Below, in pieces: positions 20,548 to 21,396 of a DNA stretch of 64,000 bases. Position numbers and translations under genes: made by a program. This stretch comes from Leptolyngbya sp. 'hensonii'. Lineage in GTDB: Bacteria; Cyanobacteriota; Cyanobacteriia; GCF-001939115. Under the pieces are notes generated by a model, which saw nothing but the letters and a program-made list of their open reading frames with translations, was not told the origin of the DNA and ran no database searches. The DNA lies in the NCBI RefSeq assembly GCF_001939115.1, contig NZ_MQTZ01000044.1, positions 124,001-188,000 of the forward strand, in the 5' to 3' direction. The number at the start of each line of letters is the position of its first letter. Position 1 is the stretch's first letter.

Positions 20548-20581
20548 CGGCTAGAGATGCAGTACGGTACGTCTCTAGCCG
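20548..20581. terminator. strong hairpin between convergent genes
   Basis: A perfect 10-bp stem (CGGCTAGAGA paired with TCTCTAGCCG) closes a 14-base loop that itself contains GTAC-G-GTAC. It sits between the stop codons of the hydrolase and the psb35-like gene, the position of a bidirectional terminator. There is no clear U tract on either strand, so intrinsic termination is uncertain. Confidence 0.5.
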
Positions 20582-20615: not shown

Positions 20616-20837
20616 TTAATAATTTTCTGCGAAATTAATACTGATGTTCCGAGAAGGAACCCGATTGCTGTAGTCAAACTTTTTCCCGGTTACGGTTTCA
20701 GCCAGTTTTTCAAAGGACTCGGAGTTCCAGTTCCGCACATGAATGGGCTTGGACTGTTCACCCAGGAAGTAGGCTTGAGTTCCCAGAACAGCGGCAGCTA
20801 CCCAACCAACAATAAACAGGGCAATCAGAATAGTCAT
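20616..20837 (-). CDS. psb35: probable photosystem II protein Psb35
   Basis: A 73-residue protein with one N-terminal transmembrane helix (residues 3-24) followed by a polar stretch (GEQSKPIHVRNWNSESFEKLA). This pattern matches, from memory, the cyanobacterial Ssl2148/Psb35 family, a small thylakoid protein associated with the CP47 module of photosystem II. An AAGGAG lies nine bases before the ATG. A sequence matching the HLR1 (RpaB-binding) consensus lies 34-51 bases upstream, which fits light-stress control of a photosynthesis gene. Confidence that the gene is real is high; the exact family name is less certain. Confidence 0.65.
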   Translation of the reverse strand: MTILIALFIVGWVAAAVLGTQAYFLGEQSKPIHVRNWNSESFEKLAETVTGKKFDYSNRVPSRNISINFAENY

Positions 20838-20870
20838 GGCTGTAACTCCTTGAGTTAATCGTTGTTTCCA

Positions 20871-20888
20871 TCTGTAAATAAATGTAAC
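20871..20888 (-). promoter_or_regulatory. HLR1-like RpaB site upstream of psb35
   Basis: Read on the minus strand the sequence is GTTACATT-TA-TTTACAGA. This is two direct copies of the (G/T)TTACA(T/A)(T/A) half-site separated by two bases, the known HLR1 consensus bound by RpaB, with one mismatch. Its second copy is also part of a perfect 10-bp inverted repeat (20871-20880 with 20893-20902). A plausible promoter, TTGACG (20910-20905), 18 bases, TACATT (20886-20881), overlaps it. That position would favour repression in low light. Confidence 0.55.
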
Positions 20889-21026
20889 AATCTATTTACA
20901 GAATCGTCAATGGAGTGTTATCCGCATTCCTTGAGTTCGGTTAACCTGCAGAGACCTTGTCGGGAACGTCTCTGCAGATGTCTCTGGGCTAATTTGGGCA
21001 TTAATAGACGCTATGCACCAAAACTG

Positions 21027-21296
21027 CCCTCACCCCCGGCCCCTCTCCCAGAGCGGGCTACTGTGTACCCATAATCCCCTCCTGGGAGGGGTAGGGGTGG
21101 GTTCAACGCTCCTGCTCCCGTTCCTAGACCCACCCCGGCCCTGCAGGCCACCCCTCCCGAGAGGGGATTTCACGCGAGTCTGCTGACTTGAGCCAAACTT
21201 TTCAGAGATCTGTATACGCGGTAGCCCAAAGCGGGAGAGGGGAGAAATTAAGCGTTAATCTCCCTTCTCCCACAATGGGGGGTGGGGGATGAGGGG
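21027..21296. repeat. composite nested palindromic repeat
   Basis: The outer element has the same ends as the repeat at 8.85 kb (CCCTCACCC at the left, GGGGATGAGGGG at the right) and an inner CTTCTCCC hairpin half. Its first internal hairpin (CCCCTCTCCC with GGGAGAGGGG) is interrupted by a second element of 173 bases at 21055-21227. This fills most of the 559-base gap between psb35 and hisC; the remainder holds the psb35 promoter and about 100 bases before hisC with nothing recognisable. Confidence 0.65.
21055..21227. mobile_element. MITE-like insertion with GGGCTAC terminal inverted repeats
   Basis: Ends are GGGCTACTGTGTA on the left and, reverse complemented, GGGCTACCGCGTA on the right (11 of 13 identical). 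The flanks AGAGC (21050-21054) and AAAGC (21228-21232) may be a decayed target duplication. Inside are CCCCTCCTGGGAGGGG and a long inverted pair GGGGTGGGT/ACCCACCCC. There is no open reading frame of note. Closing the sequence across the insertion restores an intact hairpin of the host repeat. Confidence 0.5.
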
Positions 21297-21396
21297 AAAG
21301 GGATTGGTGTGCCAAGGATATTGTTGCCCCAATTTGCCGATCGGGAGTCAGGGTTTTGGCCTATCCTGAAGATCCAATCTTCATGCTGTGACGCCT

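Follow-up and report, generated by a model that had tools for sequence, protein, structure and literature searches.

Features of the locus

The window analysed here, the whole stretch of 64,000 nt taken from contig NZ_MQTZ01000044.1 of Leptolyngbya sp. 'hensonii', contains on its minus strand a small gene related to psb35, preceded by a promoter region in which several candidate regulatory elements overlap (Table 1). Minus-strand positions 20888-20871, which read GTTACATT-TA-TTTACAGA, matched 15 of the 16 constrained positions of the HLR1 consensus KTTACAWW-N2-KTTACAWW, as it is given in excerpts of a review (PMC13421787), the mismatch being a G close to the 3' end. This site is located 33 bases before the Psb35-related gene and was the only one in the window with a score of at least 14; the three runners-up scored 13, and the best score in the upstreams of 50 mechanically called ORFs of the window was 12.

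The promoter TTGACG-18-TACATT (20910-20881, minus strand) showed 9 of 12 matches, with a TG preceding the -10, and overlaps the HLR1 in such a way that the -10 sits inside the first half-site. Two promoter-like sites were found in the 1.1 kb scanned against 0.9 expected, so the promoter call is not significant by itself and has its support in the conservation of the -35 described below. With a start placed 6-8 nt after TACATT, the HLR1 would cover from about -14 to +4. Both the one-mismatch HLR1 and the promoter overlapping it had been proposed in the first-pass annotation of this DNA and were confirmed.

Two kinds of repeats were seen around the gene. A palindromic repeat AGAGA-N11-ACGTCTCT flanks it with copies at 20553-20576 and 20950-20973, both of which fold as strong hairpins; in the genome, this repeat gave 17 strand-matches at 11 places and the reversed control gave 0. 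Upstream of the promoter, at 21030-21300, there is a C-rich/G-rich repeat-like stretch (CCCCTCTCCC ... GGGAGAGGGG), and locus L202 has a similar stretch ahead of its true psb35.

Table 1. Features of the Psb35-related locus (positions of the window) and named genes preceded by HLR1 elsewhere in the genome.
Feature	Position	Strand	Remarks
Psb35-related gene (NCBIfam NF047380)	20616..20837	-	73 aa; 123.8 bits, cut-off 80
Degenerate third half-site	20861..20868	-	20 bases past the HLR1 start; GAAACAAC in the window; from profile and alignment
HLR1 operator GTTACATTTATTTACAGA	20871..20888	-	15/16 to KTTACAWWNNKTTACAWW; predicted RpaB target
Predicted transcription start region	20872..20876	-	6-8 nt past the -10; placed by promoter geometry
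-10 hexamer TACATT	20881..20886	-	Falls in the first half-site of HLR1; many Nostocales have TATATT instead
Upstream dyad arm	20893..20902	-	TCTGTAAATA; inverted TTACA half-site, located between -35 and -10; no other genome compared has it exactly
-35 hexamer TTGACG	20905..20910	-	TTG kept in orthologues at the same 18-nt spacing
Putative hli-type gene			Triple half-site 11 bases ahead; chlorophyll a/b-binding match of 21.7 bits, just under the Pfam cut-off of 22.3
psb34			HLR1 34 bases ahead
psbA			HLR1 121 bases ahead
PGR5 gene (L168/L169, G000:C49:53799-53826)			Opposite-strand triple half-site, ending 25 bases ahead

The downstream gene is Psb35-related and distinct from psb35

The encoded protein, whose N-terminal stretch is hydrophobic and, by reading of the sequence, membrane-spanning, passed the curated cut-off of NF047380 ('photosystem II protein, Psb35-related'; 123.8 bits), whereas against NF047378 ('photosystem II assembly protein Psb35') it reached 16 bits, below the curated cut-off of 40, and matched through residues 1-24 only. 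The true psb35 of the same genome was located elsewhere (G000:C11:61128-61304; NF047378, 95.5 bits). Therefore, the name psb35 given to the gene in the first-pass annotation was wrong and has been replaced by Psb35-related. A search of solved structures with this protein gave no match.

The NF047380 family was present in 72 of 386 genomes of the phylum, with 68 above the cut-off, and NF047378 in 30 of 79 genomes from a different draw, both draws including lineages that are probably non-photosynthetic (as guessed from the separate class to which they belong). Where the family was absent from a genome, weak NF047380 matches looked like chance, except for that of G005, through which the true Psb35 was reached. 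In G147 (locus L150) the Psb35-related gene carries stop codons and the HLR1 is degraded too. Stops inside the gene were also seen in G183 and G268, two genomes of 3.0-3.1 Mb with the same genus label; as all three genomes are small (2.8-3.1 Mb), our guess is that they could belong to photosynthesis-losing symbionts.

HLR1 is conserved upstream of orthologues

The footprinting set consisted of 80 plus 70 loci; counting the window and the window's own copy, it held 151 gene copies. Once the window's own copy (L081) and identical 100-bp upstreams were removed, 143 distinct upstreams were left (8 fewer), that of the window included. L150 and L151 had been missed by the profile; of five weak NF047380 places below the cut-off, those of G147 and G159 were retrieved and those of G183 and G268 and the second one of G011 were left out. 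HLR1 was scored on the same strand over 16 fixed positions, taking the best match within 100 bp upstream.

Phylogenetic footprinting, run as a refutation test, found the site conserved. Scores of at least 14, at least 15 and a perfect 16 were reached by 120, 109 and 72 of the 143 orthologous upstreams, a phylogenetically uneven set, compared with 2.0%, 0.2% and 0.04% of 2840 dinucleotide shuffles and with 3, 0 and 0 of 166 control upstreams from the same loci, these controls being mechanical ORFs of at least 150 aa and not curated genes. In an evenly drawn sample of the phylum, a direct HLR1 was found in 57 of 67 genomes and in 13 of 19 GTDB families. The HLR1 site is kept before the Psb35-related gene in most of the sampled cyanobacteria that have this gene, two cultured examples being Microcoleus vaginatus HSN003 (L046) and Calothrix brevissima NIES-22 (L047).

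Such conservation could also come from nothing more than a core promoter of -35, -10, start and leader, in which case a TACATT -10 in DNA rich in A and T would resemble HLR1 incidentally. A profile was aligned on the site, in which 123 of the 143 upstreams could be anchored and 20 could not, a procedure that favours the motif. In this profile, the -35, itself unselected, was conserved (T99, T106 and G85 of 122) at the fixed distance of an 18-nt spacer from the -10, and the -10 is contained in the first half-site, both as expected from a core promoter. At its fifth base, the first half-site had C in 81, T in 41 and A in 1 of the 123 anchored sites, and the T converts the -10 into TATATT, thus improving it while weakening the HLR1; these variants, which retain the -10 and harm the HLR1, also fit such an explanation. 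Against it, TTTACA, the second half-site, is dispensable for a -10 and yet was nearly invariant, with the caveat that similarity to it served to anchor the sites; not one control upstream reached the score of at least 15 attained by most orthologues; and the HLR1 moves with the psb34 tandem, as described below. We regard an origin of the pattern in the core promoter alone as very unlikely.

A partial third half-site was also detected after the HLR1 in the anchored profile. It matched at least 7 of 8 positions in 7 of 80 sites with TACA and in 24 of 38 with TATA, the other 5 of the 123 having neither. A compensatory 'register shift', in which the change from TTACA to TTATA would go along with the gain of a third half-site, may be at work, with the signal coming mostly from one lineage: within family f7, the third half-site was present in 1 of 4 TACA and 15 of 19 non-TACA sites (p = 0.067), compared to 1 of 25 and 0 of 7 in the other families of the same sample.

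RpaB is described in excerpts of the review as activating from about -66 to -45 (PMC13421787), and the HLR1 could accordingly be an activator site here, with transcription beginning at a start further downstream. However, the HLR1 most commonly had its 5' end 46-50 bases upstream of the start codon, as was the case for 59 of the 120 sites, which leaves little room downstream of it for a -10 and a leader, and the correctly spaced -35 and -10 put the start inside the HLR1. Activation through this site is, in our opinion, very unlikely.

HLR1 travels with the transcription unit in psb34 tandems

An extended set with further relatives contained 153 copies of the Psb35-related gene, 123 with a direct HLR1, 14 behind a psb34-like gene and 16 with neither; the psb34-like genes ahead belonged to NF033486 in all three that were scanned. 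In the 14 psb34-[Psb35-related] tandems, the Psb35-related gene always lacked an HLR1 of its own, and an HLR1 was found ahead of psb34 in 11 of them, that is, in 11 of the 12 scorable ones, since locus L015 ends first and L048 is cut likewise, with an upstream of only 174 bases. The HLR1 thus travels with the transcription unit. In total, 19 of the 153 copies lacked both an own HLR1 of at least 14 and a scored one ahead of psb34, some of these upstreams being cut by contig ends. In L012, L060, L109, L084 and others, psb34 directly precedes the Psb35-related gene, with one HLR1 common to both, and in L084 the pair occurs twice in succession.

A perfect inverted repeat overlaps the HLR1 site

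The promoter also holds a perfect inverted repeat, TCTGTAAATA (20871-20880) and TATTTACAGA (20893-20902), with 12 nt between its arms; when the 73 bp holding it were shuffled 5000 times, a perfect repeat of at least 10 bp arose in 0.1% of cases. The repeat had been described as surrounding the HLR1 and as the possible target of a second, symmetric binder competing for the site. Its existence and its 10-bp length stood, but it does not surround the HLR1, since the 20871-20880 arm is itself an HLR1 half-site (the second one plus the 2-nt spacer) and the centre of the dyad is occupied by the first half-site.

That the perfect dyad forms a second, conserved operator was rejected as a general feature: its exact form was present in 1 of the 123 anchored promoters, that of the window, with arms of at least 8/10 in 13 of them, and at one location in the genome even when up to 3 mismatches were allowed. 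L001, whose protein is the nearest match at 85% identity, lacked it. The dyad arms do not spell the GTA-N8-TAC of an NtcA site but, by reading of the sequence, GTA-N10-TAC.

The dyad could still accommodate a symmetric regulator that competes with RpaB, or an inverted half-site that takes a further RpaB subunit. Besides the perfect dyad itself, two excesses speak for this, both counted in 47 thinned orthologous promoters in which relatedness was controlled only roughly: arms of at least 9/10 occurred in 5 against an expectation of 0.07, and the spacer held TGTAA in 10 where 2.6 were expected. Nevertheless, the spacing of the inverted half-site varied in the alignment and its recurrence was scattered. 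Because the exact dyad is confined to one promoter and one place in the genome, and because one of its arms is an HLR1 half-site, a separate symmetric regulator has no support; an inverted extra half-site for RpaB is a possible reading. As an alternative to control through the direct half-sites, we hold either version of this explanation to be very unlikely.

RpaB and other HLR1 sites in the genome

RpaB is encoded in the genome (G000:C57:34465-35145; NF045944, 397.6 bits, cut-off 330). HLR1 with at most one mismatch gave 20 matches in the 5.94 Mb of the genome and the reversed control pattern gave 8, so about eight of the 20 are likely due to chance. Among the genes preceded by such sites (Table 1), the one 11 bases past a triple half-site probably encodes an Hlip, as suggested by its Pfam score together with a reading of its sequence. 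Further matches precede genes for an SDR and a DUF4079 protein, one for an ArsA-type ATPase (opposite strand) and others without an assigned name. At L166 (G000:C47:76050), a one-mismatch HLR1 was seen 25 bases before a 55-aa protein with no Pfam or NCBIfam match.

A model for the control of the Psb35-related gene

According to the accessible parts of two sources (PMC13421787, PMC6331805), RpaB binds HLR1 in low light, represses when the site is over the core promoter and is released in high light. Sites between -38 and +23 are listed as repressing in those of the review (PMC13421787), and in section 2.4 of PMC6331805 the sign of RpaB control is said not to be always set by the position of HLR1. 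As the predicted -14 to +4 location falls inside the repressing range, the gene would be expected to be silent in low light and to respond to high light by induction. The deeply conserved RpaB-type operator on this promoter appears to be real, judging from the comparison of orthologues, and we infer from it the binding of RpaB, the sign of repression, the start site and the light response. In all probability, this is a genuine HLR1 over the -10 and the start, through which RpaB would repress the Psb35-related gene in low light and free it in high light. In low light, RpaB would occupy the two direct half-sites and block RNA polymerase; in high light, RpaB would leave, and the gene would come on along with the hli, psb34 and PGR5-type genes, which in this genome have the motif too. 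Of the light control of psb35 by RpaB put forward in the first-pass annotation, the RpaB-type control via an HLR1 over the -10 is thus strongly supported by conservation, and the identity of the gene had to be corrected.

The comparative evidence is strong and would place an uncharacterised photosystem II family in the high-light set of RpaB, a family now separated from psb35 and linked to psb34. Psb35 has been reported, in excerpts from a group of papers, to bind the CP47 module and to stabilise Hlips (among PMC13421787, PMC9145668, PMC9458560, PMC12341915, PMC11449106, PMC12130749, PMC9458580, PMC6331805). It is conceivable, but on balance doubtful, that the Psb35-related protein is an unrecognised high-light subunit acting in CP47/HLIP assembly, placed under RpaB in many cyanobacterial families by a nearly invariant operator, in some cases as one operon with psb34, and a light-inducible partner of psb35, which had no same-strand HLR1 in the sample. 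In the same tentative proposal, the operator would be made of up to three direct half-sites, at times with an inverted one, and the -10 and the RpaB site could become offset by one 10-bp half-site, a possibility suggested by the TATATT / GTTACA arrangement of many Nostocales.

Our literature search found nothing on the Psb35-related family or NF047380, or on an HLR1 before it. Riediger 2019, on the RpaB regulon, and Pascual-Aznar 2021, on Psb35, are reportedly the key papers, and an earlier mention in them is possible.

Comparison with known systems

The protein resembles that of psb35 (ssl2148, NF047378) in its N-terminal stretch and differs from it in the C-terminal part, the two being separate genes in the same genome. 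They also differ upstream: in contrast to the conserved HLR1 of the Psb35-related genes, none of 30 upstreams of true psb35 (150 bp each, one of them from the window genome, with L224, the second copy of that gene, excluded) had a same-strand HLR1 of at least 14. Opposite-strand HLR1-like matches of at least 14 were found in 6 of the 30, from three genera (L204, L211, L212, L222, L223, L232), close upstream of the genes, so RpaB may yet control some true psb35 genes from sites in the opposite orientation.

The psb34 (ssl1498) promoter of the window genome carries the same motif (TTTACAATCTGTTATATT, 34 bases before the ORF), and HLR1 also precedes the psb34-[Psb35-related] tandems elsewhere; unlike in these, psb34 and the Psb35-related gene are separate units in the window genome, with an HLR1 each.

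A close parallel is with the HLR1-containing, RpaB-repressed hli (scp) promoters of Synechocystis PCC 6803, which in the excerpts of both sources (PMC6331805, PMC13421787) likewise have two direct KTTACAWW half-sites 10 bp apart, placed on the core promoter near the start, and serve light-protection genes. In comparison with them, the site in the window, recognised from its sequence, has one mismatch and extra degenerate third and inverted half-sites, and the gene that it would control is the uncharacterised Psb35-related one.
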